Source: Tropicimonas marinistellae
GTDB taxonomy: Bacteria; Pseudomonadota; Alphaproteobacteria; Rhodobacterales; Rhodobacteraceae
Direction: 5' to 3'
DNA: 64,000 bases
Assembly (NCBI RefSeq): GCF_001509585.1
Contig: NZ_LNCI01000005.1
Location: forward strand, 248,001-312,000
Below, one piece after another: positions 13,501 through 32,233 of the stretch (position 1 is its first letter; the number at the start of each line of letters is the position of its first letter). The notes below the pieces were generated by a model that was given only the letters and a program-made list of their open reading frames with translations, had not been told where the DNA came from and searched no databases. The translations under genes were made by a program, and so were the position numbers.

Positions 13501-14910
13501 TACGACTTCCTCGATCGCCAGAAGCGGCAGGTCGGAGCCGAACGACCCGGTTACGTTGTTCAGCGTTCCCGCCCCGAGATCGACAGCTAGGGCAACGGCC
13601 ATGTCGTGGAAGGAAATGCGGTCTCTTCCACCACCGCCGTCAAAGGCGTCGCCCGCATTCACGCCGCCATAGACGTAAATCTGATCGTCGCCGTCACCGC
13701 CGTGGAGGTCCTCGTTGTCGTCCGTGTCGTGCGAGTAGAGCCTGTCCGCTCCACCGCCACCGTCGGCATACCCACCGTCGGCCCCAACATAGAGGCTGTC
13801 GCTGCCCGCCCCGCCGTAGAGGCTGTCGTAGCCGCCGTAGCCGTAGAGCGTATCGACCCCGCCATTCCCGGACAGCCGGTTGGCCACGCCGTTGCCGTCG
13901 ATCCGGTCATCGCCGTCACCGGTCTTGGCATTCTCGATCACGGTGCCCTGCGAGATGCTCATGTTGCCGCGTTTGCCGCCAATGTCGGAGGTCGTGCCTT
14001 CGGCCAGCGAGACGGTCTGATCCGCTACGTATCCAGAGAAATCCACCGTATCGACGCCGCCAGAGTCGATGATGTGGAACGCGTGGGAATCTGCGAAATC
14101 CGAAAGGACGTTCCAGATCACGGATACGTCGGCCGTGATCGTCGTGTTGAATCCGTAGGTCGTGTTACCGTCGAATGCCGCGGAAATGTCATAGGTATCG
14201 ATGCCGTCCAGCGCGAGCCAGTCGGCGATCATTGGCGTCAGCAGATACGCCTTGTCCGCTCCGATCGTGGTGTTCTCGTCCTGGTCGAAGTACGACATGA
14301 TCGACTTCTGCCAGCTGTCGTTCAGATAGACGTTGGAGTTGTTGCTGTAATCCGGATCGGTGGTTTCGGTGACGAAATTCGCCGCCCCGTCATAGGCTCC
14401 GGAATGGCCCAGTCCGAGCGCGTGGCCGATTTCGTGTATGTACGTCTGCAACGAATAGGTGCCGATGCCGGTACCGTGTTTCGTCAGCCAGTTCGTGCTG
14501 ATGTTGACATAGGCATAGTCGACAAACGCACCGTTGGAGCCGGAGACCGTTTTGTAGCCTGCATAGGCACCGGAACTGTTGTCGCTGAAAAAGAGATCGA
14601 CGTCGTCGCCGGTTGCGTCCGTCTCGATGAAGGTCACGTCCAGAACGGCGCCGTAGAGCTGCAGAGCTGCACGTGCCAGCGTCGCACCGGCGCTGGTCAG
14701 CCCGTCCGCGTCGTCGGTCCAACCCGACAGGTTGTAGTAGAGCACGCCATTGTTGGCACCAACCCCGCCCTCGCCGAGGTTGAACCCATGTGGTTTCTTC
14801 CCGAACCAACTCCAGAATCCAACACGCAGATAATCCGCTATCTCCTGGTCGGAATAGACCGGCAGATCGCTTTCCGTCGCTTCGGATGCCACTTCGCTCG
14901 AAATCGGCAC
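10579..14910 (-). CDS. Giant RTX serralysin-type zinc metalloprotease
   Basis: A 1443-residue secreted protein. The N-terminal M10 peptidase domain carries the zinc site HEIGHALGLGH (residues 159-169) and a Met-turn SIMSYF (about 203-208). There is no Sec signal, as expected for type I secretion. From about residue 330 it is built of Ca-binding nonapeptides of the GGxGxDxLx type. Residues about 975-1345 hold four longer modules of roughly 85-100 residues with DIDGxGN / ANRIxGN motifs, and a C-terminal non-repeat segment of about 70 residues ends the protein. Ordinary serralysins are about 480 residues, so this is roughly threefold larger. Start GTG 14910 has GGGGAG upstream. No ABC exporter genes are nearby. 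Confidence 0.9.
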   Translation of the reverse strand: MPISSEVASEATESDLPVYSDQEIADYLRVGFWSWFGKKPHGFNLGEGGVGANNGVLYYNLSGWTDDADGLTSAGATLARAALQLYGAVLDVTFIETDATGDDVDLFFSDNSSGAYAGYKTVSGSNGAFVDYAYVNISTNWLTKHGTGIGTYSLQTYIHEIGHALGLGHSGAYDGAANFVTETTDPDYSNNSNVYLNDSWQKSIMSYFDQDENTTIGADKAYLLTPMIADWLALDGIDTYDISAAFDGNTTYGFNTTITADVSVIWNVLSDFADSHAFHIIDSGGVDTVDFSGYVADQTVSLAEGTTSDIGGKRGNMSISQGTVIENAKTGDGDDRIDGNGVANRLSGNGGVDTLYGYGGYDSLYGGAGSDSLYVGADGGYADGGGGADRLYSHDTDDNEDLHGGDGDDQIYVYGGVNAGDAFDGGGGRDRISFHDMAVALAVDLGAGTLNNVTGSFGSDLPLLAIEEVVAGDGDDLIVGSSIANVLDGNGGADRIESGSGDDVLYGNAGNDTLVLQSGSNSAYGGTGEDTFFVSDLGGTQDLDGGSSADTLDLSDNDVAWDIDLEAGRGAGKFTVLTLTKIENLLAGAGDDVLRGSDGENTLEGGSGEDSLFGGGGADWLSGGSDADALSGEGGDDQIFGNGGNDVIYGGGGFDTVYGGSGDDELHSGGLGTYYGEEGADTAFASSDGTGGAEVLDGGGGHDHLDLTGARGVHEIDLATGLTNLSINSGDRYTDFESVTTGALDDTVLATSDDNEIITNGGDDIVDGMAGADTIHGGAGRDTLRGGEDVDTLYGDAGDDTLLGGDDSADTLYGGDGDDILRNGGDADDDNRAFGGEGDDDITSYGRGQYYGGSGDDVLRAGAGSREELLDGGDGRDRLDTTATNDDYEIDLATGKTNFDGKTFLNFENATTGGGDDEIIATMAANVVIAGGGSDRLFGLGGRDELRGGGGNDQLFGGGGKDVLLGGGGKDVLTGGAGADRMEGGAGDDVYVIGNAEQVIVELAGQGRDRIEASISFDMAVNGANVEDLVLTGERDIDVLGNALANRLSGNAGKNVLAGGDGADTLLGKAGDDRLDGGAGGDEMRGGGGRDIYVIDDAADRAIEKAGGGRDTVLSAITFSLLSHGGDLEVLKLTGSADIDGAGNALANRIVGNDGNNFLDGGAGKDILVGKAGNDSYRVDHAADRVVEIADNGTDTVLSTVSFTLFDNGRNVEILKLRGNADIDGVGNRSDNRIAGNNGDNLLDGHLGDDVLRGGRGDDTFRDKKGADLMRGWKGDDTYYVDDIGDRVVEKAGKGTDTVVSHLDFDLQASGRHVENLTLVGKKNLHGSGNGADNVLVGNGARNVLDGGRGDDDIWGAGGRDLLTGGKGMDTFRFRAGDGIDKIMDFGRGADKILFESGAGGFDDLRLSQSAANVVIAYGEDDEIIVLNTTVADLTEGVFAFLG

Positions 14911-15160: not shown

Positions 15161-16594
15161 TCACTCTTGCGTGCCGACCAACCGCGAAAACAGATCTCGC
15201 CTGACCTGTGCAAAAACCCCGTCCCAATCCATTGGCCGACGTTGGCGATAGAGCCGCATGGAACGGTACCATGGCGTCCTGTCGCCATGATGTCCGTAGA
15301 GCCAGAAAGGATCCCAATGAAGCAGATTCCAGACCTCTTTGCCGAGCGATCCCGCAAGATGCGCGGTCGCCGTGTCGGCAGTGATCACGAGGTCCATCTG
15401 CTCAATTGTGGCCGCGCAATCGGCCAGATCTGCATCGTTGCTCGCCGTGTCGATCAGGACAGCGTTGCTGGCATCTTCGAAGTATTCCTTCAGAAGCGGC
15501 CCCTTGTAGAGCGAATAGAGGCGAACCCCGTCCAGATCGGCAAGCGGCAGAAAGGCTTCATGGCCGAACGCGCGCAGATGGTTGGCCTTGTAGGTGACCG
15601 ACCCCGACCAGACGACACCAATGCGCAGGTCGTCGCCGGCATTGCTCAACAGGGCTTGCGCGCGGTCGCGACTGACCTGGGGAACATTGAATTCCGCAGG
15701 CGCGGGCGGCGCTGCTTCGGTGCGAAAGTAGTGCCTGGGTAGATCGAACATGCTGGTCCACATGTCATACCCGGACAGGTCGGGCACCTCGGTGCTGACG
15801 ATGTCGGCAAGTCCGGAGTTCTCGAACAGTCGAAGGACTGGCGGCCGGCACACCATATGCACCCGCGCGCCCTGCTCGCGGAGCAGCGGCAGGAACCGGG
15901 CACATAACAGGCTGTCGCCCAGCCCCTGTTCCCGAAGAACAAGCAATGACTTTCCCGCCAGTGGCGCGCCGTTCCAACGCGGCAGATCGATGCGCGGGCG
16001 CGCCACGTCGCCAGTGGAAAAGCGCGCGTCGTAGTTCGCAAAGCCGGATCGGTAATCACCAGCGGCGAGTTGCGTGAGAGCCAGCTGAAGCCGAACCTGG
16101 GATTTGCCGCGAAAGCGCTTTCGCGCGGCCTGCAACACGTCGAGCGCCTCGTCATATCGGCCAAGTGCCCGCAAATGCCGGCCGAGATTCCAGCCGGCGT
16201 CCGGATCGTCCGGTGCTTCGTCCAGCAGCTCGCGGAAAAACGCTGCGGCCTCCTCGTTACGGCCAGAGTCGCCGAGGGCATTGGCGAGATTATTGCGTAC
16301 GATCCGTAGATTTGGCGCCAGCCGATACGCACGTTGCTGGAACCGCAGCGATTGCTTCCTCTGTCCGCTTTGGCGCATGAGGACACCAAGGTTCGACCAC
16401 ACAGTCGCGTCGTCCGGCCGAAGCATCAGGTACTTGGTGTAGAGTGCCGCCGCACGGGAGGTTTCGCCGCGGCGGTGATGGGCAAGCGCCGCCGCACGGA
16501 GCGTTTCAGCCGACACCATTTCCGCAGCCGTTCCCGCCGCCTGGGGGGCGCCCCCGTCGGCCGCATTCTTGTCACCGGGACTGCTGCCTGGCAT
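15161..16594 (-). CDS. TPR protein with glycosyltransferase-like C-terminal domain
   Basis: A 477-residue protein. Residues about 25-190 are tetratricopeptide repeats (for example AAALYTKYLMLRPDDATVWS and DALDVLQAARKRF). The C-terminal half (about 225-470) resembles the heptosyltransferase/Spindly-like GT-B domain that commonly follows TPRs in alphaproteobacteria (LLVLREQGLGDSLLCARFLP, IGVVWSGS, LVITADTATAHLAGSLGKEV). Residues 26-58 correspond to the duplicated fragment at 9157-9254. It lies between the RTX protease and the kinase/GTPase cluster. Transfer of sugar to protein or surface glycan is inferred; the acceptor is unknown. Confidence 0.8.
   Translation of the reverse strand: MPGSSPGDKNAADGGAPQAAGTAAEMVSAETLRAAALAHHRRGETSRAAALYTKYLMLRPDDATVWSNLGVLMRQSGQRKQSLRFQQRAYRLAPNLRIVRNNLANALGDSGRNEEAAAFFRELLDEAPDDPDAGWNLGRHLRALGRYDEALDVLQAARKRFRGKSQVRLQLALTQLAAGDYRSGFANYDARFSTGDVARPRIDLPRWNGAPLAGKSLLVLREQGLGDSLLCARFLPLLREQGARVHMVCRPPVLRLFENSGLADIVSTEVPDLSGYDMWTSMFDLPRHYFRTEAAPPAPAEFNVPQVSRDRAQALLSNAGDDLRIGVVWSGSVTYKANHLRAFGHEAFLPLADLDGVRLYSLYKGPLLKEYFEDASNAVLIDTASNDADLADCAATIEQMDLVITADTATAHLAGSLGKEVWNLLHWDPFWLYGHHGDRTPWYRSMRLYRQRRPMDWDGVFAQVRRDLFSRLVGTQE
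16422..16519 (-). repeat. Intact-gene copy of the 98-bp inverted duplicate
   Basis: This is the source-like copy of the repeat at 9157-9254, in the opposite orientation and inside the TPR gene (codons starting MVSAETLRAAALAHHRRGET). There are six mismatches over 98 bp. No similarity is visible immediately outside the repeat on either side. Confidence 0.8.
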
Positions 16595-16679: not shown

Positions 16680-17516
16680 TCAACCGCGCTGTGCAACTTG
16701 CGCGCTCGGCCAGCCGTGCAGAACCTCCTGCAAATCGTTGACCATGGCGTCAAGCCCGGCGGGACGAATGAGAAGCGTAAGCAGGATTCCGTCGAAGGAG
16801 GCAAGTATCACACCGTGACCGGACCCTCCGAAACGGTTGAGGGCAAACACACAGCGATCGCGAGACAGGTCAGGCAGGGCGCGCGACGCGGCGAATACAT
16901 CGCGCTCAAGTTTGCGCGCCAATGCCTCGGCCTGCTCGAACAGGCCGGCATCGCCGCCGCAGTCGGTTTGCCCGTCAAAGCGACGTACCCAGCAGAGTAT
17001 TGTGCCCCTGTGCCGGGCCAGGATCCCATCCAGCACATCGACCATTGGCAGCCGTCCGGACGGCGCCAATACGACCTCCCACGCATCGGCCAGTTTCTTC
17101 GCCGAGATGCCAAAACCATCCTCCGGCTGTTCGGCGGTCTGGGTCTCCTCCCAAACCTGAAGCGCGTCGCTTTCGGCAATGAACCCGTCCAGCAGGTCAC
17201 GCAGAAACGAGATCGTTTCCGGGTCCCGCGTGTCTTCGGGTTGCCAGATGGTGCTCAACGCGCGACCGCAGAACTGCCTCGCACTGGGCGCGCGCACGCG
17301 GAGCACCCGCCGGTTGTGCACATCGAGAAGGAGTTCCCTCCCCTCGGCATTGGCCAGACGCAACGTCCGGGCAAGCACCGTCTCGTCGATTTCCTGGAGC
17401 ACCGACGCCAAAAGTGTCCTGCCGCCGAACGCGCGCAATTGACGGCCCGCCGCCGAACTCGCCCCCGCCGCGGCCAGACGCTCGATCTTGTGTTGCAGGT
17501 CGTCGGGGAGTTTCAT
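16680..17516 (-). CDS. Unknown protein at the distal end of the kinase-GTPase cluster
   Basis: A 278-residue soluble protein that I do not recognise. It opens with an Ala-rich helix (ERLAAAGASSAAGRQLRAFGG), followed by a mixed alpha/beta part with LDVHNRRVLRVRAPSARQF. A second half from about 170 (PSGRLPMVDVLDGILARHRG) ends with LDAMVNDLQEVLHGWPSAQV. There is no membrane segment, signal peptide or catalytic motif visible. It starts 26 bp after the small putative roadblock gene and is probably cotranscribed with it and the GTPases, so a role as regulator or effector of them is a reasonable guess only. Confidence 0.7.
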   Translation of the reverse strand: MKLPDDLQHKIERLAAAGASSAAGRQLRAFGGRTLLASVLQEIDETVLARTLRLANAEGRELLLDVHNRRVLRVRAPSARQFCGRALSTIWQPEDTRDPETISFLRDLLDGFIAESDALQVWEETQTAEQPEDGFGISAKKLADAWEVVLAPSGRLPMVDVLDGILARHRGTILCWVRRFDGQTDCGGDAGLFEQAEALARKLERDVFAASRALPDLSRDRCVFALNRFGGSGHGVILASFDGILLTLLIRPAGLDAMVNDLQEVLHGWPSAQVAQRG

Positions 17517-17542
17517 GGCTCGGTCCCTTCAGATGCTCTCGC

Positions 17543-17917
17543 TCAGAGGTCCAGTATCTCGACCGTGCGTCGCGCAATGCCGCGCGCTTGCTGGGACGGG
17601 GTTTCGGGCGGGAAGAAAAAGCACAGCGCCGTGCCGGCTTCCTGCGGGACATTCTGGAGCACCAGCAATTCGGTTACAGTGGCGAGCACTGCCTGTTCCG
17701 CGTTGTTTCCAACGTTCGAAAACGCCTCGCTCGCAACCCGGCACAGCCCATCGAGAACTTCTTGCGGGCGAGCCGCATGGCTGCTTGCACCAAGCACGGT
17801 GGTTGCCTTGAAATCCACGTAAACGACAGCGTCAATCGTCGCGTTCTGCAGGCGCAGTGAGTCCAGTCTCGATGATACGTTCACGTCCGATGCTCTGGTG
17901 GCCAAGTTCGTGTGCAT
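17543..17917 (-). CDS. Small protein of the GTPase cluster, possibly roadblock/LC7-like
   Basis: A 124-residue soluble protein. The pattern of an N-terminal strand (IDAVVYVDFKATTVLGAS), a helix (EVLDGLCRVASEAF), paired strands with ELLVLQNVP and ALCFFFPP, and a last helix (QARGIARRTVEIL) is compatible with a roadblock/LC7 fold. Such proteins act on small GTPases (for example MglB with MglA). There is no diagnostic motif, so this is a structural guess. It lies 106 bp after the smaller GTPase and 26 bp before the unknown 278-residue gene. Confidence 0.6.
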   Translation of the reverse strand: MHTNLATRASDVNVSSRLDSLRLQNATIDAVVYVDFKATTVLGASSHAARPQEVLDGLCRVASEAFSNVGNNAEQAVLATVTELLVLQNVPQEAGTALCFFFPPETPSQQARGIARRTVEILDL

Positions 17918-18023
17918 ACCATCACCCGAACATTGCTAGCACAACCCGCGGCATTGGTTTTCTCTCCGTATCCATAGTTAATTCCATGCGGTCCCGCTCC
18001 TCTGCCAGAACCGCAAGGTCGGT

Positions 18024-18917
18024 TCAGAACGCGGGCACATTCAGTGCGGAACGCGGCAGCCGCTCGCGACGGCTTTGACGATGATTTCCCGGGACAACCC
18101 GCTTCGGCGTGACGCTGACCTGGGCGACCGCCAGATGCGGTTCGGCTGCGCGCGGCTCGGACTTGGGTTGTTCCACCACGAGGGCATCTTCATGGACTCG
18201 CATATGCGGCGGCGAAAGAGAGTTCGTTTGCCGCGGTGGCAGATTGAACACCACATCGAGCAGTTTCTGTGTGAAGGCTTCCGCTCCGCTATCCTCCCAT
18301 GCATTGCGGTCGTCTTCTGCCTCAGCCGCCTGAAGAAGCGAGATCGGGTAGACCCCTGCGAACAGCCCGTCGGTTTCACTCTCGACGCGGCTGAGAACCC
18401 GGCTCCGGTCCGTTTCCGTGAGGATCTTGTCAAATCGTGTCAGCAGAAGCAGGCTGTTCTGCTGAAGGATCACCGGCATTTCGCTCCAGGTTGCAGCCTC
18501 GCTTTGCCGCCATGCCTGAGTCGCGTGGCTACACCAGATCACGCTGTCGGCGTGGGGAATGATCTGCTCCCACGTCTTGGAGGAAAGGTTGGGATCGGAA
18601 ATGCCGGGCATGTCGATGATGTCCATCAACTCCAACACATCAACTTCCAGGAACACCTTGATATAGGCCGTTTCGTCCACGGACACCCCGTCGAGCGCTC
18701 CAAGGTCGAGTTCAGTGGCGTTCCCATCATGATCCACGCTCAGCGCGTGGCCATCGCCGTGACTGTACCAGATCGGAGGCAATTGGGTCGCTGTCACGCG
18801 CACCGGCGAAACGCCCTCGCCGATCAAAAGGTTCGCCAGGGTGCTCTTGCCCGCGCTGAACTCGCCCATCAGCGCGACGACGGGTCGAGCGGGCACGGTA
18901 TCAGGTGTTGTCTGCAT
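18024..18917 (-). CDS. Dynamin-superfamily small GTPase
   Basis: A 297-residue GTPase. The P-loop GEFSAGKST (18-26) has the dynamin-type GxxSxGKS form. The G3 motif is IIDMPG (DMPG 102-105) and G4 is TRFDK (160-164, replacing T/NKxD). The GTPase part ends near residue 230. A Pro/Arg-rich, probably disordered tail follows (about 231-297). There is no stalk, so it is unlikely to assemble like classical dynamins alone. Its ATG overlaps the stop of the large dynamin gene by one base (TGATG). The segment ADSVIWCSHATQAW matches a segment in the degenerate GTPase at 21242-22447, showing common origin. Confidence 0.85.
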   Translation of the reverse strand: MQTTPDTVPARPVVALMGEFSAGKSTLANLLIGEGVSPVRVTATQLPPIWYSHGDGHALSVDHDGNATELDLGALDGVSVDETAYIKVFLEVDVLELMDIIDMPGISDPNLSSKTWEQIIPHADSVIWCSHATQAWRQSEAATWSEMPVILQQNSLLLLTRFDKILTETDRSRVLSRVESETDGLFAGVYPISLLQAAEAEDDRNAWEDSGAEAFTQKLLDVVFNLPPRQTNSLSPPHMRVHEDALVVEQPKSEPRAAEPHLAVAQVSVTPKRVVPGNHRQSRRERLPRSALNVPAF

Positions 18918-21013
18918 CAGTGGGCCTCCGTGGTACTCGGTGCCAGATGCCGCATCAGCACCTGCTTCGCGGCGGAAAGTGCCGCGATCTTCTGTTTCGC
19001 GCCGTCCCCGAGCCCGGCATCTTCCAGGTCCTCGGGACAGACATCGCCTCGCATGGATAGATCGTTCAGGATCGTTCGCTGCGCCGAAATGAAATCCAGC
19101 AACGGCTTCATCGCGGCCTCTTGCGTCGCGCTGCCATAGTCGCTCTTCAGTGTTGCCACCATCGCATCTGTTTCCGACTTGATCAGATCACCGAAGTCCG
19201 CGGCATAGGCGCGATAGCCCCGCCGGCTCCGCCACCAGCGCTTCCACCATCCGGCATTCATGTCGAGCGCGATGGTTTGACCAAGGAAGACCGGCGGCGG
19301 CAAGACCGGAACTGCGGGTGGCTCTATGGAAAAACTGTCGGGATCCATGCCGAAGCCGCGCAGGTAGAGATCGCAGACCTCCTTCGCGCCTTCGTCGTAG
19401 ACCTTGCGAATTGCGGCGGTGCTGCGCCGCGAGAACACCTGAAACGCGGTCCGCAACAGGATACGGAGGCCGGTGGGATCGTACGTCCAGACTGAAAGCT
19501 CACCATAGGTTTCCAGATGCTTGATCAGCGCACTGGTGGCCCGGTCAACGAAACCGACATTTGCGCGGTCCAGCCGTTCGTGGAACTCCGGTACGATCTT
19601 GGCGAAGTCATCCGCTATACGCTGCTTGCAGCGCTCTTCGATCCGGTCCAGTTCCGCCGGCAGCGCTTTGCGGTTCAGCGGAACGACATTCGAATCCCTC
19701 GGGGGCCCTTCGACGAGTTGCGCGGATGTCTCAAGGCTGGACGCGAGGTTGAGCGCGGAGCGCGCGACATAGTCAGAAACCTCGCGCCCGACGGTGTCGG
19801 ACACGCGGCTCGAAAGCGCCTCGAACAACTTCGGGATACCCGAAAGCTCCCATACATCGGCCGACGAAAGCTCACCGGACGGATCCTCCGGCATTTCTCC
19901 GGTCTCTGCCTCCGCCCAGTTGATCAGCGCCTGGGTGCTTTCCGGGTCCATGTTCGAGACATTCCGGCGCAATGCGTGATTGGCCCAGTAGGCACTGCCG
20001 AAGATGATCTGCGCATCTTCCGGTCCATGATGATCCTTGATCGTCTGGCGAATGCTCTCCGCGATGGTGTTGGCCTGCCCGCCGGGATCCGCCAATTCGT
20101 CAATCCGGTTGACGAAGATGACAACGCTGCGCGACGGAATGTTTGCGATCAGCCGGATAAGCGCGAGATCCACCGAGGACATCGCCTGATGCGCCGACAG
20201 GACCACAACGCAGGACCGGCTCTCCCGGATTGCCCGCATGGTGATCTGCTCGCGCATCATGAAGGTGTCATTCACCCCCGGTGTGTCGCGGATACACAGG
20301 TCCACCGGATATTCCGGACGGTACATGTATAGGTCTGCCGACTTGGTGATATCGGCAAAGCGTCCGCGCGTCGTGGACGTATCGTGGTCCGTCTCGAAAT
20401 CGTCACCAAGGCAGACGTATCGCTCCACCAGTTCGGCGTCGAGGAAACCGTATTTGTGCTCCTGCCCCATGAGCAGTTCGAATTTGTCGCCCAACCGGTA
20501 GAGCGACTTGGTTCGCATCGTCTCCAGTTGCGCTGCCACTTTCGCGAGGTCGTCGTCAGCCCCTGCCCGACCCGCCAGTTCACCCAACCGGCCGCCGCCC
20601 TGCATTAGCCGCTTCCATTCGTCCTCCTCGAAGAAGCGAAACACCGCGCGTGCACTGTCCACCAGCGGGCGCGAGGATAGATGGATCGAGGTCACGACCG
20701 AGGTCCAGGGGTTCACATCCGCCGGCAGCAGATCCGGGCAGCCGATCATCGCGTTGACCAATGACGTCTTGCCGGATTTCACCTGCCCGATCATCGTGAC
20801 GCTCGGCTCGGCACGCCTCAGCCGCTGCTGGAGTTTGCGCGTGCTCGAAGAAATCGCCCGATCACCGATTTCGGCAATGGATTCTATCGCTTGCGACAGC
20901 TCATCAAGGTCGTTTGCGATGGGGGATAGCGCCGAGACCCCGCTTTCCAGCAGATCTGCGTTGATCGCCGGTTCCAACATCTCTGCGCGCTCGAATGTAC
21001 GATCGATAATCAT
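18917..21013 (-). CDS. Bacterial dynamin-like GTPase
   Basis: A 698-residue GTPase with a P-loop MIGQVKSGKTSLVNAMIG (GQVKSGKTS 76-84), G3 RDTPGVND (DTPG 243-246) and G4 VNRIDEL (NRID 302-305). Long helical regions follow, as in bacterial dynamin-like proteins. A short segment near residues 560-590 (PAVPVLPPPVFLGQTIALDM, followed by WWKRWWRSRRG) is rich in Pro, Trp and Arg. It could be a membrane-contacting paddle. ATG 21013 has AAGGGCACGGA upstream and is preferred to an ATG 24 bp earlier. It sits 228 bp after the degenerate GTPase and one base overlapping the smaller GTPase. Membrane remodelling is the family function; the target here is unknown. Confidence 0.87.
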   Translation of the reverse strand: MIIDRTFERAEMLEPAINADLLESGVSALSPIANDLDELSQAIESIAEIGDRAISSSTRKLQQRLRRAEPSVTMIGQVKSGKTSLVNAMIGCPDLLPADVNPWTSVVTSIHLSSRPLVDSARAVFRFFEEDEWKRLMQGGGRLGELAGRAGADDDLAKVAAQLETMRTKSLYRLGDKFELLMGQEHKYGFLDAELVERYVCLGDDFETDHDTSTTRGRFADITKSADLYMYRPEYPVDLCIRDTPGVNDTFMMREQITMRAIRESRSCVVVLSAHQAMSSVDLALIRLIANIPSRSVVIFVNRIDELADPGGQANTIAESIRQTIKDHHGPEDAQIIFGSAYWANHALRRNVSNMDPESTQALINWAEAETGEMPEDPSGELSSADVWELSGIPKLFEALSSRVSDTVGREVSDYVARSALNLASSLETSAQLVEGPPRDSNVVPLNRKALPAELDRIEERCKQRIADDFAKIVPEFHERLDRANVGFVDRATSALIKHLETYGELSVWTYDPTGLRILLRTAFQVFSRRSTAAIRKVYDEGAKEVCDLYLRGFGMDPDSFSIEPPAVPVLPPPVFLGQTIALDMNAGWWKRWWRSRRGYRAYAADFGDLIKSETDAMVATLKSDYGSATQEAAMKPLLDFISAQRTILNDLSMRGDVCPEDLEDAGLGDGAKQKIAALSAAKQVLMRHLAPSTTEAH

Positions 21014-21241
21014 TCCGTGCCCTTGAAGACCACCCATGGGAAGACAAATTCACCGATCAAAGACACAGACCGGCAGCCACTTCTGCCGCATAGCTTCCCG
21101 CATGGGCAAAATTCGCCGAGCTTCGTGGCCATTGTAAGGCAGCAATCTGTCCAAAACGGTCGTTGACGCAGGCCGTTGCAAGGCGACGCAAATCAACTGC
21201 ACCGTCGCCATTGCGGAAAAAGATAACACAAGAACAATGAT

Positions 21242-22447
21242 TTACGCGGCGGCCCGTGTGTCGAGTTCCCGGCGGATTTGAAGCATGAGGCAGATACCGT
21301 CCATCTCTGGGCATCCCTCGCCTTCGATTTCCATCAGGACGAGAAGTTCATCTGCTTCCATGAGGACATCTGACAACTCCGCAAGATCGCCCTCTGCAAC
21401 GGAGGTCTGGGAGTCGAGCAGTTCGGTGAGAAGTTCGATCGTCTCGCGGCAGTGGCTCATGACATCGGGGCCGGTCACCCCTTCGCCAGAGGTGTTGTCG
21501 CCAAGCAGAAGTCGCGCTCGCTCCCGAACAAGTGCTGCCGCCTCCTGGCAAAGCGCGGCAATCTCCGCGTTGCGGACAGGCGACGACGTGTCTTCGGAAG
21601 GTTCGTCCACCGTGTCCGGCACGCGAACCGATGCATGGTCCGTTTCTGGCGACGGCGCGAGACTCACAACCTCGTCGGGAACCTCGAAAGTTGTCTCGTA
21701 CTTTTTCAGAAACAACAGCGCTGAATCGCTGTCGGCTTGCCGCCCGAGTTCCGCATGGCGCCCCAAGCCGTCCGACAGACGCGCGAGCCCAAGGTCTTTT
21801 GCACCTTGATCTGCGTCCAGATCCACAGGAATGACGTCGAGAAACGCCCTGTCCAGGCCGTTTCTTATCTGCGAGGCGCGCCCCTGTCGGCTATCCCCCC
21901 AGAGAGCGAGAAAGGCATGGTCCGTGAGGCGCTCATCTACACCCCGCCAGATCCTCTGTTCGGCATCTCCGAAGTCGCGGGAGCACCACACGAAAATGTC
22001 TGCCCGGCTCGAAACCCATTTCAGCGCCATCCGCATGTCGGCTTCGGATCCGCCGACACCCACATCGAGGAAGCAGGTGCGCTTGAGCAGAGGAACCGAT
22101 CTTGCGAGGGAGAGAAATAGAATATCGTTCCCGAACTGGTCGGGAACGTCAGAAAGATCCTCGACCTTTCCGTCCGGTCGCGTCGCACGCGTGCTGTCCG
22201 TTTCGCTGAAACGCAATTCCAGCGGGGGCTTTCCTGGCGCCACCGGAACGACCGGCGCACCAAGGATATCATTGATCATCTCGCCACTACGGCCATCAGA
22301 CGCCCCGACAAAGGCAATGCGCACGGGCGTTTCGAGCCGACGCAACAACCCCTCGGCATGGCGCCCCACGTTCGCCGGTAACGATCCGGAAGACTGGAGC
22401 GCCCGAAGCCGCTCGCAGACCAGATCGAAATTGCCGTGATGTGCCAT
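21242..22447 (-). CDS. Degenerate GTPase (pseudo-GTPase) of the kinase-dynamin cluster
   Basis: A 401-residue protein with the overall plan of the neighbouring small GTPase but broken nucleotide motifs. The P-loop position reads GASDGRSGE (48-56) where the paralogue has GEFSAGKST. The G3 Asp-x-x-Gly is replaced by LDVGVGG, and no T/NKxD is found (LALWGDSRQG). The shared segment ADIFVWCSRDFGDAEQRIW aligns with ADSVIWCSHATQAWRQSEAA of the 297-residue GTPase. The C-terminal half is acidic then helical. ATG 22447 (GAGG upstream) leaves 11 bp after the PP2C stop; an ATG at 22474 is the alternative. It is probably a regulatory partner of the active GTPases. Confidence 0.75.
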   Translation of the reverse strand: MAHHGNFDLVCERLRALQSSGSLPANVGRHAEGLLRRLETPVRIAFVGASDGRSGEMINDILGAPVVPVAPGKPPLELRFSETDSTRATRPDGKVEDLSDVPDQFGNDILFLSLARSVPLLKRTCFLDVGVGGSEADMRMALKWVSSRADIFVWCSRDFGDAEQRIWRGVDERLTDHAFLALWGDSRQGRASQIRNGLDRAFLDVIPVDLDADQGAKDLGLARLSDGLGRHAELGRQADSDSALLFLKKYETTFEVPDEVVSLAPSPETDHASVRVPDTVDEPSEDTSSPVRNAEIAALCQEAAALVRERARLLLGDNTSGEGVTGPDVMSHCRETIELLTELLDSQTSVAEGDLAELSDVLMEADELLVLMEIEGEGCPEMDGICLMLQIRRELDTRAAA

Positions 22448-22458
22448 GTCGGCGTGCC

Positions 22459-23400
22459 TCAGGGTGTGTCGCACTTCAACTGTCGCCGCCCCTTATGGGC
22501 ACGCGCCTTTCCAGTGTCCACGGTCTTGAGTGCGAAGATGGACGTCGGACGCGCCGGCACCACGGGCCGCGGTGCCACATGCGGTCGATTTCCCCGAATT
22601 GCCGGGGTCTCGACCAACTGGATCTTCACCACGACAATCGACACATTGTCCTGATCGGGATCATCCAGCTTCTCGATCTCTCGCAGCAGTTGCGCCGCGA
22701 TCTGGCCGCTCGACATCGTCGACCAGTCCGCCAGCACCGTTCGTATCCGTTCGTTGCTCAGGTACTCGATCCCATCGCTGGCAAAAACCAGCAGATCGCC
22801 GTTCAGCAGCCTGAAAGGCTCTTCGGGGCAGTCGATTTCGGCGATACCGCCGCCACCCACGACGGAGGTCAAGCAGTTCCGGTCAGGATGCTGCGCGGCA
22901 TCCTCGCTCTCCATCAGGCCAGATGCGACCATCGAATCCATCGTATGTCCGAAGGAATGCTCCTCGTTCAGACGCTGCAGAACGCCGCCGCGAAAGAGAT
23001 AGAGCGGAGAATCTCCGATGGAAATCCAATGAAGCGCATCGCCCTGGAGCACTCCGGCGACGAGTGTCGCCCCCATGCCAAGAGACTCGGGACGATCCTC
23101 GATATACGCGCGGATACAGTCGTTCGCCCCGCGCGCTGCCCGGGTCAGCACCCCGTGGTATCCAGTCTCCTGCGCCTCGGATGCGCCGGACTGAAGTTTC
23201 AACTCGCTGAAGACTTCCGTCAGAACGATCTTGCTGGCCACGTCACCCGCGGCATGCCCGCCCATCCCATCCGAGAGAACGACCAGCCCGGTGTCGCTGC
23301 CCAGCGGGCAATCGAACAGGACAGCGTCCTCCTGATAGGTGCGTTTACCGACGCTGACGGCCGAGGCCGCCTCGAAGAAGGGTTCAGAGTGTTGCTGCAT
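22459..23400 (-). CDS. PP2C-family (PPM) serine/threonine phosphatase
   Basis: A 313-residue soluble metal-dependent phosphatase. The metal-binding motifs are complete: TYQEDAVLFD, LSDGMGGHAAGDVAS, VFASDGIEYL and DNVSIVVV. The catalytic domain covers residues 1-245 and is followed by a basic tail. ATG 23400 was chosen because the domain begins there; it overlaps the end of the FHA gene by 17 bases. It should reverse phosphorylation by the kinase encoded two genes upstream. This kinase-FHA-phosphatase trio resembles the PpkA/Fha/PppA set of type VI secretion, but no secretion genes are present. Confidence 0.92.
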   Translation of the reverse strand: MQQHSEPFFEAASAVSVGKRTYQEDAVLFDCPLGSDTGLVVLSDGMGGHAAGDVASKIVLTEVFSELKLQSGASEAQETGYHGVLTRAARGANDCIRAYIEDRPESLGMGATLVAGVLQGDALHWISIGDSPLYLFRGGVLQRLNEEHSFGHTMDSMVASGLMESEDAAQHPDRNCLTSVVGGGGIAEIDCPEEPFRLLNGDLLVFASDGIEYLSNERIRTVLADWSTMSSGQIAAQLLREIEKLDDPDQDNVSIVVVKIQLVETPAIRGNRPHVAPRPVVPARPTSIFALKTVDTGKARAHKGRRQLKCDTP

Positions 23401-24823
23401 CCCGGGCACCGGTTTCCTTACCTTCGTCCCAGGAAAAATCGGACCCGCACAGCGCGACGAACCGCAGTGTGGTTTCACCGATACGAATCTGGTCTCCACT
23501 GGTGAGGGGCTCAGTGCTGAGTACCGGCATTCCGTTCAACCGAACCAGGTTAGCTTTGCCCCCGTGGCCAATGAAGAACGTCTGCTGCTCGTCGTCGTAT
23601 GCGATCGCCGCGTGGTTCTCGCGCGAAATGCTTGTGTCGCCGTGGTCCAGCGTCACGGCCTGGTCATCGGCCCGTCCAATTGTCGAGACCCCGTCGAACA
23701 GGGCGTATGACGCGCCTCGCCCCGGCCCCTTGACGACGACAAGCCAACCCACTGGGAAACGGGCGCTTTCGGCAGGCGCGGCGGGGCTCGGCCGCGCGAA
23801 GGGGTTGTTCTCGACCTCGTCCGGCCGATGGAAGCCGAGGAGCCGTGTCTTCACCCGGCCTGCACGCTGTTGACGAGGCCGCTCCTGAGCGGGCTCGGCG
23901 GTTGGTTCGGCAGCCACGCCAGGTACCGGTTCGGACTGCTGACGCAAGGAGGAGACGTTCGAAGGCGTCGATGGTACCGGCGGTTCGTCCTCCGCGGAAT
24001 CCCGGACGTCTTCTTCACGGTCGAGGTCCCAAATGCGCAGCGTTTGCGCGATGTGTTCCATCGTCTCGTCGGAAGCCGCACCTGGCTGGGCCACTTCGGA
24101 GGGGACCTCCGATTCCTCGAGTTCTACCTCCGTAACGTCCCGCACATCATTGAGTTCGTGTTCATAATCTTCGTTTGAAGAATCTCCAGATACCTGAGTC
24201 TCCAGCGCTTCGTCCGCATCCTTTGATTCCGCTTCGTCAGCGGGGAAAGCCTGCAACGGGCTTTCGAAAGCCTTGTCGAGATTAACCGATGGAGTGGCCG
24301 GAACGTCTGCAACAACCTCTTCCGCATCGTCTTGCTCAAGCTCGCGGATGGAAATACCCTCTTCCGCGGGGTCTCTGTCCTCGGCGAAGTCAATGGCGTC
24401 TTCGGTTTCCTCGGGTGCTTCGTCCGCAGCGCGGAACTCGAAGTTCTGGGCCTCGTCTGCCATCCCGCATACCGATGCCGGCGCTACCTCTGGTACGTCC
24501 CATGCCCCATTTTCAATTGGCTCCGCGGCGTCCTCGGGGCGCAGCAGCAGTGGTTCAGGGCGAGTATCCCCCGCATCATCTCGCGGGGCGCATTCTGCTG
24601 GCGCGTCATCGAGTGACTCGTCTGCCATTGGATCCCGGAAGCGAACGCCCTCGTGGTGGCTGTCGCGCACTGACGCCATTGCGGTTTCCCTGATCTCCAA
24701 CAGGTCAGGGCGGGCCATCCCGTGGCGTGCGACGCCGTGCGCGGCCGGCAGGGCCACCGCTTGCGCCGCAGCGGGCGTCGCATCGGAGCGTTTCTTTTCA
24801 ATTAGTTCCGAGATGAATCTCAT
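23384..24823 (-). CDS. FHA-domain protein with long acidic linker
   Basis: A 479-residue protein. The C-terminal FHA domain (about 360-460) has the phosphothreonine-binding signature TIGRADDQAVTLDHGDTSIS followed by RENH, and LNGMPV later. Residues about 50-350 are strongly acidic and low in hydrophobics (Glu/Asp/Ala/Pro-rich), so probably disordered and a plausible kinase substrate with many Ser/Thr. It has no membrane segment. Its ATG overlaps the kinase stop (ATGA) and its end overlaps the phosphatase gene, indicating tight coupling of the three. Confidence 0.9.
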   Translation of the reverse strand: MRFISELIEKKRSDATPAAAQAVALPAAHGVARHGMARPDLLEIRETAMASVRDSHHEGVRFRDPMADESLDDAPAECAPRDDAGDTRPEPLLLRPEDAAEPIENGAWDVPEVAPASVCGMADEAQNFEFRAADEAPEETEDAIDFAEDRDPAEEGISIRELEQDDAEEVVADVPATPSVNLDKAFESPLQAFPADEAESKDADEALETQVSGDSSNEDYEHELNDVRDVTEVELEESEVPSEVAQPGAASDETMEHIAQTLRIWDLDREEDVRDSAEDEPPVPSTPSNVSSLRQQSEPVPGVAAEPTAEPAQERPRQQRAGRVKTRLLGFHRPDEVENNPFARPSPAAPAESARFPVGWLVVVKGPGRGASYALFDGVSTIGRADDQAVTLDHGDTSISRENHAAIAYDDEQQTFFIGHGGKANLVRLNGMPVLSTEPLTSGDQIRIGETTLRFVALCGSDFSWDEGKETGARDAATL

Positions 24824-26247
24824 TGTTCAGCCCTTCCGGCAAGTTGGGTTGGGTCCTCTGCGAACAAAGGGCCGATCGTCCAGAGCGCTTTTTCCACGAG
24901 CGATTTGGTGACCGGCACAGGTTCCTGGGCCTCGCGCGCAAGCCGTTCTTGCTCCGCGCGCCGTTCTTCCGATCGCTTTGCGATCATCGCGATGTAATCC
25001 ACGTATTCCGGAGCCTGCGGCGGAACCACTGTCTCAACCGGGGCCCGGCCAAAGGTTTCAATTTCCTGAGAGTCCGGCGTCGGATTCTGGACGTCTGGTA
25101 ACGAGTCCGGAAACGGATACGCGCCGTCGACGCTCTCCTCTTTCACCGTCTCTGAGTTGCGAAGAAGCTCCGCCTCCTCTGCGCGCCGCGCCGCTTCCAT
25201 TTCCTCGCGCTGCCGATCCTCTTCGAGGATGCGCGCGAGTTCGGTGTTTGTCTGGCGGGTCAGCTCGCTTACAAGCTGGTCGATCCGGGCGTCCTTGCGG
25301 GCGACCTCAAGCGCCTGCGACGTCTGCGAATGGTCATCGATTTCGAGCAACCACTCGTTCGCGCTCTGCATCCGGTCGCGCCCCAATACTGAAAGCGCCT
25401 TGTCCAGCGACGCCAGCAGCGGACGGTCGAAGCGCTCAATACGGGCTTCGAGTTTTTCGTAGGGGTCAGGCAATCCCTCGGCGACAGCGGCGAGGCGATC
25501 CGGACTCGGCGGCGGGGCCTCTCCCGTTATCGCGAAGTGGAAGGTGGCTGCGAGCGAATAGATGTCGCTCTCAGGCGAGTGTATTCCCCGGCTCTGATAA
25601 AACTCGTGCGGCGAGTATCCGTCCTTGACCGCCTGGAGCGCCGAGGCATCGCGCGCCGCCTGAGCGCGCGCAGCACCGAAATCGATCAGAACGGGGTTTC
25701 CGTTTTTCTCGATCAGGATGTTGTCCGGAGAGATGTCGCGATGAAGGATACCGCGCGCATGGATGTGAGAGATTGCGCTCAGAACCGTCACCATGAGCTC
25801 GCGGACGCGTGACGGACCGAAGTGCTCCCGGTCGTCCTCGATCAGCGATTGCAGGTCTTTGCCTTCGACGAAGTCGAGCGCCATATAGGCTGTCTTGTTG
25901 TCCGCAAAGACCTCGTGCACCCGAACGATATTGGGATGCTCCAACATCGCCAGCGCCCGCGCTTCCTTGCGAAAAAGGTCAAGCAACGCTTGGTAATCCT
26001 TGGCGTTTGCGTCGGAACGTACCCGAACGTTTTTCCCCGACCGGTAGCAAATGAAGCTCGGAAAGCACTCTTTGAGCACGACAAGCCGGTCCAGGCTGTT
26101 GCGCGCAAGGTAGGTGATTCCGAATCCGCCGGAGTTCAGATACCGCTCGATACGGTACTGGCCGCGCAGCAGCGTGGAGCCGACGGGCAGTTCGTCGCCC
26201 TGTTTTTTGTCCGTGTCCGGCTCTCTGCGCTCTGTGGCTGCGCTCAT
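24820..26247 (-). CDS. Eukaryotic-type serine/threonine protein kinase
   Basis: A 475-residue Hanks-type kinase, first gene of the cluster. The Gly-loop is YLNSGGFGITYLAR, the ATP lysine is Lys59 (VVLKECFP), and the catalytic loop is HRDISPDN (Asp171, Asn176). The metal-binding Asp189 lies in LIDFGAA. The kinase domain spans about 28-290. A charged, probably coiled region follows (RILEEDRQREEMEAARRAEE near 345). There is no transmembrane helix, so it is cytoplasmic, unlike PASTA kinases. A promoter is expected in the long gap upstream. Confidence 0.92.
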   Translation of the reverse strand: MSAATERREPDTDKKQGDELPVGSTLLRGQYRIERYLNSGGFGITYLARNSLDRLVVLKECFPSFICYRSGKNVRVRSDANAKDYQALLDLFRKEARALAMLEHPNIVRVHEVFADNKTAYMALDFVEGKDLQSLIEDDREHFGPSRVRELMVTVLSAISHIHARGILHRDISPDNILIEKNGNPVLIDFGAARAQAARDASALQAVKDGYSPHEFYQSRGIHSPESDIYSLAATFHFAITGEAPPPSPDRLAAVAEGLPDPYEKLEARIERFDRPLLASLDKALSVLGRDRMQSANEWLLEIDDHSQTSQALEVARKDARIDQLVSELTRQTNTELARILEEDRQREEMEAARRAEEAELLRNSETVKEESVDGAYPFPDSLPDVQNPTPDSQEIETFGRAPVETVVPPQAPEYVDYIAMIAKRSEERRAEQERLAREAQEPVPVTKSLVEKALWTIGPLFAEDPTQLAGRAEQ

Positions 26248-27311: not shown

Positions 27312-27569
27312 CTAGCGTTTCCGATCCAGCAGTTCCGCCTCAGGGTAGATCGGCCGGTATATTTCGACCCGGTCCCCTTCCTTCACCGGTGCGGTGAGCT
27401 TTGCGACCGTTCCGAAGATGCCGACCTTGTTTTTTTCGAGGTCGATTTCCGGGAATTGCTGCAAGAATCCGGAACGCTCGATCACGTCGCGCACCGTGGA
27501 TCCGTCCGGCACGTCGATCCGGATCCACATCTGGGAGGATTGCTTGGCGAATGCCACACCCACGTTCAT
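27312..27569 (-). CDS. rnfH: RnfH family protein
   Basis: An 85-residue protein of the RnfH/UPF0125 ubiquitin-like family, the last gene of rnfABCDGEH. Typical are VPDGSTVRDVIERSG, the KNKVGIFG turn and the end DRVEIYRPIYPEAE. It overlaps rnfE by 4 bases. Its exact role in the Rnf complex is unsettled; in R. capsulatus it belongs to the nitrogen-fixation rnf operon. Confidence 0.93.
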   Translation of the reverse strand: MNVGVAFAKQSSQMWIRIDVPDGSTVRDVIERSGFLQQFPEIDLEKNKVGIFGTVAKLTAPVKEGDRVEIYRPIYPEAELLDRKR

Positions 27570-28300
27570 GCTGCCCCATCTCCTTCGGTGCTCGGCTGCA
27601 GAACGCCTGCGGCTGTGAAAATCCTGCTGTGCGTTGGTTCACTTTCCGCGCCGCGTGGTTTGTTGCCCTGACGGGCGTCGATCATTGCCTTCAACGCCAG
27701 CAGGATGCCCAGCATGATGAATCCCCCCGGCGGCAGGACCAGCAAGAGGAACCCCGAGTATTCGGGGATCACGGAGACTTCCAGGAAGCCGAAGTGTTCG
27801 CCCAGAAGCAGTGGCGCGTTCGCGAATAATGTGCCGGAGCCGAGTACTTCCCGCGTTGCTCCCAGCACCACCAATGCCGCAGTGAACCCGACGCCCATCA
27901 TCAGGCCGTCAAATGCTGCCGGCAGGACCTTCTGCCTCGACGCGAACGCCTCCGCGCGGCCGAGAATGGCGCAATTGGTGACGATGAGCGGGATGAAGAG
28001 ACCAAGTTGCTTGTGCAGGTCGTGCAACCAGGCGTTCATCGACATGTCGACCACGGTCACGATACAGGCAATGATCAGGACGAACGCTGGAATGCGAATT
28101 TCCGGTGTGATCGCCTGCCGTAGCAGCGACACCACGACACCCGACAGAACCAAGACCACAAGCGACGCCAATCCCATGCCGAGACCGTTGGTCGCCGTTC
28201 CGGTGACAGCCAGAAGCGGGCAAAGCGCAAGGAGCTGGCCGAAGACGACATTGTTGTCCCATATCCCGTTTCGCGCGATCGATACATAATCCTGTGTCAT
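27566..28300 (-). CDS. rnfE: Electron transport complex subunit RnfE
   Basis: A 244-residue integral membrane subunit of the Rnf complex with about six hydrophobic helices. The N-terminal segment NGIWDNNVVFGQLLALCPLL is characteristic of the RnfE/NqrD family, whose conserved Cys helps bind the intramembrane iron centre together with RnfA. The C-terminus from about residue 215 is a short soluble tail. It overlaps rnfG upstream and rnfH downstream by 4 bases each. Confidence 0.95.
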   Translation of the reverse strand: MTQDYVSIARNGIWDNNVVFGQLLALCPLLAVTGTATNGLGMGLASLVVLVLSGVVVSLLRQAITPEIRIPAFVLIIACIVTVVDMSMNAWLHDLHKQLGLFIPLIVTNCAILGRAEAFASRQKVLPAAFDGLMMGVGFTAALVVLGATREVLGSGTLFANAPLLLGEHFGFLEVSVIPEYSGFLLLVLPPGGFIMLGILLALKAMIDARQGNKPRGAESEPTHSRIFTAAGVLQPSTEGDGAA

Positions 28301-28977
28301 TGGCTACCTGTCTCCTCGGCCGATAGGAGTGTGTCCCGATTGCGCGCGTAAAATTCGAGCCCGCGATGAATTGCGTCCACCACGGCGCGCGGCGTAATGG
28401 TCGCGCCGGAGAATTGGTCGAACTGGCCGCCGTCGCGCTTCACCTTCCACCCCTCCGGACCGGGGTTCGAGAGCGAGAGGCCTGCAAAGCCGTGAATCCA
28501 GTCCGACTTCGCCTCCTCGATCTTGTCGCCGAGTCCCGGCGTTTCGGCATGGGCCAGAACGCGCACGCCCAGTAACTCCCCGTTCGGGTCGATCCCGAGC
28601 AAAACACGGATCGCGCCACCGTATCCTTGCCCAGTCATCTCGAATGCCACGCCCGTCGGCGTGCCGGCACGGCGCGCGACGTAGACTGTCACGGCCCCGG
28701 CCTCCGCATCCGTGACGGTCATAGCGCCGTCGGTCATCGCATTGTCATGGATCTCGTCCGGAACAACCTGCGCGAGCGATGCATAGAGATCCTCTCTCCC
28801 ACGGTCGGCGATCGGTCCGCGTGTGACAATGTCGACAAGCGAGAGTATCAACGCCGTGGCGAGGCAGAAGAGCGCGAGCAGGACGCCGTGTGCCGCCGGA
28901 GACTCGCGCAGAACCGAAGCCATACCATCCGTTCGGGGGTTTGTGTCGGTATTCAGCGTGGGCGAGTGATCGGTCAT
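28297..28977 (-). CDS. rnfG: Electron transport complex subunit RnfG
   Basis: A 226-residue flavoprotein anchored by one N-terminal helix (about 30-52). The bulk is outside the cytoplasmic membrane. The motif QFSGATITPRAV contains the Thr to which FMN is attached covalently by an ApbE-type transferase. Such a transferase (RnfF) is encoded in the divergent operon at 35815. It overlaps rnfD and rnfE by 4 bases. Confidence 0.95.
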   Translation of the reverse strand: MTDHSPTLNTDTNPRTDGMASVLRESPAAHGVLLALFCLATALILSLVDIVTRGPIADRGREDLYASLAQVVPDEIHDNAMTDGAMTVTDAEAGAVTVYVARRAGTPTGVAFEMTGQGYGGAIRVLLGIDPNGELLGVRVLAHAETPGLGDKIEEAKSDWIHGFAGLSLSNPGPEGWKVKRDGGQFDQFSGATITPRAVVDAIHRGLEFYARNRDTLLSAEETGSQ

Positions 28978-30056
28978 TGCCGCGCCCCTTTGGGAAGTTC
29001 CAGAGGCCGCCCCTTGCGGTCCCGCCCGAATATGCGTGGCCGCGTGTATGTATCAATGACCGGTGTGCAGGCGTTCATCAACAGCACCGCAAAGGCTGCG
29101 CCCTCGGGGAAGGCGCCCCAAGTGCGGATGATCACGATCAGAAGGCCCGTCCCGGCGCCGTATATCAACTGCCCCAGTCCCGAAACCGGCGATGTCACGT
29201 AATCGGTCGCGATAAAGAAGGCACAGAGCATCAACCCGCCGGAGGCGAGGTGCCAGAGCGGCGAGGGGTAACTCATGGGATCGAGCAGGTGCAGGGCAGC
29301 CGACAAGCCACCTGCGGACAGCAGCAGCGCAAAGGGCGTTTGCCAGCGGATCACGCGCATGGCGATCAAAAGGCAGCCGCCGAGGAACAACAAGAGCGCG
29401 CTCGTCTCGCCGAGGCTGCCCGGCACATGGCCGAATGCGAGGCTGCGCAGCGGGAAGGTCTCCGCCATAATGTCGGTCAGGTGGCGCCCACCGTCCAGTC
29501 CGGCCGCCACGAAACCGAGCGTCGTCGCCCCGCTCACCGCGTCGATGTCGCCGCTGCCGCCGAAGGTGATCGTCAGCGCCTCCCAAAACTCCGGCGCGCC
29601 CGGCTCTCCGAATGGCGGGGGCAGAACCCAGGTCGTCATCTGGACCGGCAAAGCCACGAGCAGCATCGCACGGGCGACCATCGCCGGGTTGAACATGTTC
29701 TGACCCAACCCGCCATAGACATGCTTTCCAAGCCCGATGGCAATGAAAGCCCCAACCGTTCCGACCCACCACGGCGCCCAGGGAGGCAGGGTCATCGCCA
29801 GCAGCCAGCCGGTGAGGATCGCGGAACCGTCGAAAAGGTAGATCGACACCGGACGCCGAGCCAGAAGAAGGCAAATTGCCTCGGCGATGAGCGCGCTTGC
29901 CACGGTTACGGCAAAAAGCAGGATCGCCGGCCAGCCGAACTGGTAGAAGCCGAGCGCCGTTGCCGGCGACAGGCACACCATGACCGAAACCATAGTCTGA
30001 GCGACGGAAAACTTGGAATGGGCATGGGGCCCGCTGACAATTGCACCGCCGGTCAT
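28974..30056 (-). CDS. rnfD: Electron transport complex subunit RnfD
   Basis: A 360-residue membrane subunit with about nine to ten helices. It has a covalent FMN site DAVSGATTLGF (Thr in SGAT). ATG 30056 was chosen because it overlaps the rnfC stop (ATGA) and begins the conserved part; longer in-frame extensions lie in rnfC. It couples electron transfer from ferredoxin/NADH to ion movement and in this setting supplies low-potential electrons to nitrogenase. Confidence 0.95.
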   Translation of the reverse strand: MTGGAIVSGPHAHSKFSVAQTMVSVMVCLSPATALGFYQFGWPAILLFAVTVASALIAEAICLLLARRPVSIYLFDGSAILTGWLLAMTLPPWAPWWVGTVGAFIAIGLGKHVYGGLGQNMFNPAMVARAMLLVALPVQMTTWVLPPPFGEPGAPEFWEALTITFGGSGDIDAVSGATTLGFVAAGLDGGRHLTDIMAETFPLRSLAFGHVPGSLGETSALLLFLGGCLLIAMRVIRWQTPFALLLSAGGLSAALHLLDPMSYPSPLWHLASGGLMLCAFFIATDYVTSPVSGLGQLIYGAGTGLLIVIIRTWGAFPEGAAFAVLLMNACTPVIDTYTRPRIFGRDRKGRPLELPKGARQ

Positions 30057-31648: not shown

Positions 31649-31660
31649 TGACGGGGTTCC

Positions 31661-32215: not shown

Positions 32216-32233
32216 GAAAGCTCTCCCAAGGGG

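Follow-up and report, generated by a model that had tools for sequence, protein, structure and literature searches.

An operon of Rhodobacteraceae that joins a kinase, FHA protein and phosphatase to dynamin-type GTPases and roadblock-fold proteins

The window analysed here is a 64,000-nucleotide stretch of Tropicimonas marinistellae DNA (contig NZ_LNCI01000005.1, positions 248,001 to 312,000; coordinates below are counted from its first letter). The host genome (G000) measures 5.4 Mb and belongs to the Rhodobacteraceae. An operon of eight open reading frames (ORFs), all on the minus strand, occupies 16680-26247; read in the letters, the order is KIN-FHA-PP2C-G3-DYN-SG-RB-U8, that is, a kinase, an FHA-domain protein, a phosphatase, three GTPase-family proteins and two proteins modelled with a roadblock fold or domain. 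An earlier reading of the sequence alone (the original prediction) had described eight overlapping minus-strand genes here, and all are present. KIN and FHA overlap by ATGA (24820-24823), FHA and PP2C by 17 bases, given the PP2C ATG at 23400, and DYN and SG by one base, in TGATG at 18917; these three overlaps, which had been predicted, are seen in the letters. PP2C and G3 also share 16 bases, given a G3 start at GTG 22474. The intergenic gaps are 204 bp 5′ of DYN, 106 bp 5′ of RB and 26 bp 5′ of U8. A promoter and terminator scan gave counts no higher than in shuffled sequence. Pfam gave no match to G3, RB or U8 up to E 1.

The first three genes encode a kinase, a reader and a phosphatase. KIN (24820..26247, 475 residues) is a Hanks-type Ser/Thr kinase (Pfam Pkinase, 1.5e-33). 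Its catalytic motifs (Gly loop, VxKE, HRDISPDN and DFG) are intact, and the Gly loop, Lys, HRD and DFG residues are kept in 69-70 of the 70-72 kinase relatives that cover them. No transmembrane segment was found in the window KIN by hydropathy scan; a simple hydropathy rule marks a transmembrane-like segment in 24 of the 72 kinases of loci L078-L157 (L numbers denote loci throughout). A PDZ-like extracytoplasmic part was considered for the long kinases and dropped, as Pfam names no domain beyond the kinase domain in the three that were scanned. The FHA protein (23384..24823, 479 residues) has an acidic N-terminal linker, a KTRLLGF motif and a C-terminal FHA domain (residues 381-449, 23477..23683 by Pfam coordinates; Pfam FHA, 9.8e-8). 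The domain residues G383, R384, S400, R401, H404 and N425, which presumably serve in phosphothreonine binding, are conserved in 77 of 77 sequences. The motif reads GRVKTRLLGF in the window (23831..23860) and is held more loosely in the relatives, where the pattern [KR]TR-x-x-GF occurs in 74 of 77 FHA proteins with KTRLLGF as its commonest form; the three proteins that lack it are two ORFs cut by contig ends (L082, L096) and the second FHA gene of L115. By analogy with the phosphorylated Fha of type VI secretion, we propose Thr326 of this motif as the phospho-acceptor. PP2C (22459..23400 from the ATG; a longer ORF runs from GTG 23499) matches Pfam PP2C_2 (3.1e-9) and, at 3.2e-39 and under that model's cut-off, an NCBIfam Stp1-type family. 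Its residues D58, D77, D163, D242 and D284 are conserved 77/77. We take these Asp residues and those of the kinase motifs to play the roles they have in the family motifs. The Pfam matches and conserved motif residues thus bear out the predicted complete Ser/Thr switch, and a Hanks kinase, an FHA protein and a PP2C phosphatase are encoded together as in the threonine-phosphorylation pathway of type VI secretion.

Two of the GTPases were predicted to be of dynamin type, which Pfam confirms. DYN (18917..21037, 706 residues, with a second ATG at 21013) is a large bacterial dynamin-like GTPase (Dynamin_N, 2.9e-12), and SG (18024..18917, 297 residues) a small member of the same family (Dynamin_N, 4.2e-10). 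The DYN P-loop GQVKSGKT (20765..20788) is intact, with G84, K87, G89, K90 and T91 conserved in 81 of 81 sequences; the SG P-loop GEFSAGKS is likewise intact, its G, K and S conserved in all 81 covering sequences. Two adjacent Dynamin_N GTPases with intact P-loops are a feature of bacterial dynamin-like pairs, and the solved sequences closest to DYN are 5owv of the Cj-DLP pair (E 1.1e-11) and the bacterial dynamin-like protein (BDLP) 2j68 (2.4e-9). A segment rich in Trp and Arg, WWKRWWRSRRGY (19214..19249, pattern WWxxWW..RRGY), retains its four Trp in 80-81 of 81 sequences. It is a candidate membrane-contact element.

G3 (21242..22474) is related to SG, with which it has a WC motif in common and can be aligned as one family; homology and a tree of the relatives place it as a paralogue. 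In the window its P-loop (consensus GxxxxGK[ST]) has decayed to GASDGRSG (22283..22306). An alignment of 82 G3 sequences shows 60 with an intact P-loop, 16 with a degraded one and 6 that are unreadable there (5 not covering it, 1 with undetermined letters); the window copy is among the degraded ones, as are those of L078, L079 and L081, the three named Tropicimonas loci. The prediction of a degenerate third GTPase therefore holds for the window but not in general. The G3 of this genome would act as a pseudo-GTPase with a regulatory role. On iteration the profiles of G3 and SG merged (131 matches each), so they were split by operon position, and a midpoint-rooted tree of 67 proteins from relatives, window copies left out, served as a check on the split. 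Operon G3 proteins form one group (support 99/96) and operon SG proteins another (99/99). In variant loci, GTPases that partner the first large dynamin group with SG; nine partners in second position divide, four (L063, L064, L066, L073) falling with G3 and five with SG. A simple account, in which a second large dynamin was lost and G3 left behind as its orphan partner, is hence only partly borne out, with 4 of 9 partners grouping with G3. On this mixed evidence G3 may have started out paired with a second large dynamin, an arrangement still visible in Ruegeria-type loci.

The last two genes were identified by structure. The original prediction had named a possible roadblock-like partner and one unknown protein, and had suggested structure prediction for the unknown members; models of RB and U8 gave roadblock folds. 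RB (17543..17917, 124 residues) is modelled as alpha-beta-beta-alpha-beta-beta-beta-alpha, which matches solved roadblocks, and is assigned as a roadblock/LC7-fold protein. U8 (16680..17516, 278 residues; AlphaFold2 (AF2) pLDDT 85.7) has no Pfam match and its N-terminal domain is of unplaced fold, but its C-terminal domain (residues 155-269, 16710..17054) is modelled with roadblock topology as a second roadblock domain and matches solved roadblocks structurally over the compared residues 153-272. For the whole U8 chain the top Foldseek match was a Mon1-Ccz1 chain (E 1.8e-4), but at a root mean square deviation of 17.1 the superposition is unusable and does not place the N-terminal domain. Roadblock Pfam models matched 0 of 31 RB and 0 of 28 U8 members up to E 0.5, and profile searches of PDB sequences returned only phospholipase A2 for RB (best E 0.056) and one designed protein for U8 (E 1). 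As these profiles gave no roadblock match, both proteins lie beyond sequence-only recognition.

The operon recurs well beyond the window. Among 198 Rhodobacteraceae genomes, sampled at about one per genus from this mostly marine family, 48 have a DYN relative (E <= 1e-20). For gene order we used 87 DYN-selected loci, 7 from plasmid records and 80 named genome loci; the latter are the top-ranking ones among 491 relatives of a DYN alignment whose seeds were mainly operon DYNs, and the sets L031-L070 and L078-L157 share some genomes (e.g. L041 and L126). A locus was counted as complete if all eight labels were present, and as having room if 6.5 kb before and 3.5 kb after DYN were available. Complete loci number 73 of 87 overall and 61 of 62 where there is room on either side of DYN; the exact string KIN-FHA-PP2C-G3-DYN-SG-RB-U8 is seen in 59 of 87. 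The refuting result named in the original prediction, a kinase set and GTPases that rarely keep company, is thus not what the genomes show, although 73/87 overstates linkage across all DYN relatives because seeding and selection favoured operon DYNs. The less biased figure is that for U8, present in 42 of 48 DYN-positive and 0 of 150 DYN-negative genomes. Flanking genes vary between genera and are common within some lineages; the presence of the same eight genes in dozens of genomes, amid different neighbours, rules out a chance association. Pairwise distances correlate with those of DYN (G3 0.89, PP2C 0.88, SG 0.86, U8 0.83, RB 0.81, KIN 0.69, FHA 0.52), which points to joint descent rather than contact, as the comparison holds no unlinked control gene. 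Named strains of Tropicimonas, Yoonia, Leisingera and Roseobacter carry the operon, and the window DYN shares 82% identity with its counterpart in Tropicimonas isoalkanivorans and 79% with the one in T. sediminicola.

Outside the family the trail is short. Among 385 genomes sampled across the class, DYN (E <= 1e-30) turned up only in the own genome and in one further member of the Rhodobacteraceae. A phylum sample of 398 genomes (E <= 1e-10) gave 8 family positives, the own genome included, and one outside the family (2.6e-74). This locus, from another alphaproteobacterial family, is a bare DYN-SG pair (L182, 9345-12823) and is perhaps near the ancestral state. Searches for U8 and RB across the class (195 genomes) gave, beyond the own genome, weak matches only (3 and 1, respectively; E 7.6e-5 to 9.6e-4). 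DYN also has matches in 19 plasmid records, one being a weak match in Photobacterium. We note that a Photobacterium plasmid (L075:7342-14115) carries three annotated dynamin family genes among conjugation genes. In viral contigs, none of 37 pattern matches is a relative.

Several relatives depart from the standard order. A DYN-SG-DYN-SG arrangement is seen in L063, L070, L074, L183 and L184. In genome G003 an RB-U8 pair lies distant from DYN, between cobN-type and PBP-OmpA genes (L186:9658-12627), with no family GTPase in the 20-kb stretch. Two further loci (L187:7024-13690, L189:7967-14596) hold a DSP-type phosphatase, RB, U8, a further ORF, DYN and an SG/G3-type GTPase; the kinase, FHA and PP2C genes are absent from the stretch. 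The DSP-type phosphatase was assigned by Pfam in L187 and by an HCxxGRGRTG motif read in the sequence in L189, where the further ORF encodes an ABC-ATPase-like protein with a weak DSP-phosphatase match. A PBP-OmpA gene directly follows U8 in four genomes (L044, L041/L126 from one genome, L128 and L186), and in L065 such a gene is found close to RB; the assignment rests on Pfam for L186, L126 and L128 and on similarity for the others. In L077 the FHA and KIN genes are separated by a LysM/SBP gene and a further SBP-like gene. The window operon has neither the PBP-OmpA nor the LysM/SBP neighbour seen in these relatives. Such neighbours are hints of an envelope input, short of proof. As a separate observation, an mreB-like gene lies 3′ of U8 (median 204 bp) in L091, L093, L094, L096, L100, L103, L108 and L122, and 7 of these 8 loci also have an mreC-like gene; the mreB-like gene is restricted to the Silicimonas/Boseongicola lineage, and both names come from sequence reading, with no family search.

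In the window itself, the gene directly downstream of U8 (15161-16594, likewise minus strand) encodes a TPR protein with a sub-cut-off C-terminal glycosyltransferase-9 match. The second gene after U8 (10579-14910, minus strand) encodes an RTX protein of 1443 residues that has 18 stretches of calcium-binding repeats and a metalloprotease region of matrixin/serralysin type; long ORFs also lie 3′ of the operon in the Tropicimonas loci L078 and L079. Upstream of KIN are Rnf-type electron transport genes (27566-32884, minus strand), of which RnfC (30053-31648) and an Rnf-Nqr subunit (32234-32884) were named by Pfam and the others by reading. Chemotaxis genes (4657-8217, plus strand) encode a CheA-like histidine kinase and a CheR methyltransferase.

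Each recognised part of the operon comes from a known family. No operon of such composition, and so no named system, was described in the titles and abstract openings of the open-PMC full-text matches listed, in line with the original prediction. The nearest comparison for the first three genes is PpkA/Fha/PppA of type VI secretion, where a Hanks kinase, an FHA reader and a PP2C phosphatase are also encoded together and such sets act as a post-translational switch (PMC10482370, PMC3953482). In Pseudomonas aeruginosa, TagQRST senses membrane damage, which leads to activation of PpkA and phosphorylation of Fha; PppA reverses this (PMC10482370). In the present operon, however, type VI genes are lacking, the three sequences are remote from those at type VI loci of the same family, the FHA protein has its own KTRLLGF-type motif, and the companions are GTPases and roadblock proteins. 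Dynamin-like pairs (Cj-DLP1/2, Nostoc BDLP1, Bacillus DynA, LeoABC) resemble it in their adjacent Dynamin_N GTPases; bacterial dynamin-like genes are mostly paired in operons and a role in membrane repair has been speculated (PMC6104087). Here the second and third GTPases are short, kinase, FHA, PP2C and roadblock genes are added, and the DYN subfamily is almost confined to Rhodobacteraceae in the samples searched. The MglA/MglB(/MglC) and Ragulator-Rag systems have in common with it the roadblock fold of RB and of the U8 C-terminus and the use of roadblock proteins to regulate or scaffold GTPases; roadblock and longin proteins are frequently heteromeric GTPase-activating protein (GAP) or guanine nucleotide exchange factor (GEF) complexes (PMC9481161). 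In contrast to those systems, the operon GTPases are dynamin-type and not Ras/Rag-type (Pfam Dynamin_N for DYN and SG), U8 has an extra N-terminal domain, and Pfam is silent on RB and U8. Finally, DYN has a weak partial match (1e-11) to LeoA of the PADLOC collection. LeoA/LeoBC, which we take to be the system called Eleos, differs in that the SG matches are weak (LeoA 4.7e-5, LeoBC 7.8e-5) with no full-length LeoBC-like partner, and that the operon has three GTPases, the kinase set and roadblock proteins, with no defence neighbourhood seen in the nearest flanks of 32 loci. Of every known system that could be tested decisively, the operon lacks a defining feature.

We propose, with about even confidence, a heteromeric machine of dynamin-type GTPases that sits at the inner membrane on a platform of roadblock proteins and is governed by threonine phosphorylation, through a switch of the same build as in type VI secretion. 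KIN would receive an envelope signal, a step suggested by the membrane segment in about a third of relatives and by the PBP-OmpA or LysM/SBP genes near a few loci, and would phosphorylate FHA Thr326 or a GTPase. The FHA domain would then bind phosphothreonine and bring about complex assembly, with PP2C resetting the system. RB and U8 may bind each other by their roadblock domains and serve SG and G3 as GAP, GEF or scaffold, and DYN with SG could tether, bend or seal membrane via the W/R-rich segment. The biological use may be repair, defence or polarity, with repair or remodelling of a stressed envelope the most likely. A bolder version is tentative and, in our judgement, rather doubtful: the operon would be a counterpart of eukaryotic regulated membrane traffic, in which an envelope-fed switch gates a three-GTPase dynamin machine via a heterodimeric RB-U8 platform. 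No precedent for roadblock proteins serving dynamin-type GTPases was found in the open-PMC literature searched.

An anti-phage or conflict system, in which infection would be detected by the kinase set and the membrane then sealed or disrupted by the dynamin-type GTPases, appears unlikely. Such a role would suit the patchy occurrence of DYN in the family, the genera g472 and g475, in each of which one of two species is DYN-positive among the phylum-sample genomes listed, the plasmid records, the LeoA match and the phage resistance conferred by Bacillus DynA (PMC8844932). However, the 110 nearest-flank proteins of 32 loci are chiefly concerned with metabolism, transport and regulation by Pfam, and their PADLOC matches (1e-10) are few (mad3 6, mad8 5, AriA 2, GlgB 1, MotB-like 1; raw counts without a background set). 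These matches are probably generic. KIN matches in PADLOC are spread over many different Ser/Thr kinases, the viral contigs hold no relative, and the flanks common within lineages indicate that the operon has retained its position for some time. Defence thus finds no support in flanking genes, viral contigs or the PADLOC scan of the eight proteins and the flanks, the last read without a background set.

We also give a low probability to a polarity or signalling hub without membrane remodelling, where roadblock-regulated GTPases would form an MglA/MglB-like localisation switch or a signal partner of the kind that DgcE has, their state set by the phospho-switch. Two roadblock domains next to GTPases and the shortness of SG (297 residues) fit this idea, and the Escherichia coli cyclase DgcE does have a GTPase partner system (PMC6510439). 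Against it, Pfam assigns DYN and SG to Dynamin_N, the largest GTPase is a dynamin of 706 residues whose W/R-rich segment is conserved, and no recurrent cyclase, motility or pilus gene is present in the top 14 flank clusters shared by many loci.

Regulation of a type VI secretion system encoded elsewhere is very improbable and largely refuted, despite the precedent of the kinase-FHA-PP2C switch, and the original prediction had likewise seen no secretion genes. VipB has no match in the own genome (the search control was positive in E. coli), and across the 198 family genomes it shows no association with DYN (14 of the 48 with DYN, 30 of the 150 without; Fisher p 0.23). In the stretches around VipB of 9 relatives there is no FHA match and no KTRLLGF-type motif; remote kinases occur in 4 genomes (max 75.9 bits, versus 568 for the L185 KIN) and remote PP2C proteins in 4 (max 106.2 bits, versus 348). 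The co-occurrence of VipB and the remoteness of the sequences near it led us to reject the link. GvpA, searched for as a sign of gas vesicles, gave no match in the own genome, and the control genomes were equally silent. A machine for photosynthetic intracytoplasmic membranes, which the reaction centre in 83 of 198 family genomes together with membrane-shaping GTPases might suggest, is scarcely credible, largely refuted and rejected on co-occurrence, as Photo_RC is absent from the own genome and present in 24 of 48 DYN-positive versus 59 of 150 DYN-negative genomes (p 0.24).

The observation behind the original prediction is confirmed and its interpretation partly supported: the kinase set and the GTPases do occur together and a type VI link is rejected, whereas a phosphorylation-gated membrane remodelling or defence machine is still a putative reading. 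If the phospho-switched GTPase machine that we favour is real, bacteria would have a phosphorylation-gated dynamin machine, and roadblock proteins, otherwise partners of Ras/Rag-type GTPases, would be placed with dynamins. The operon further provides a possible phosphosite (KTRLLGF), a possible membrane segment and a natural series of intact and degraded G3.

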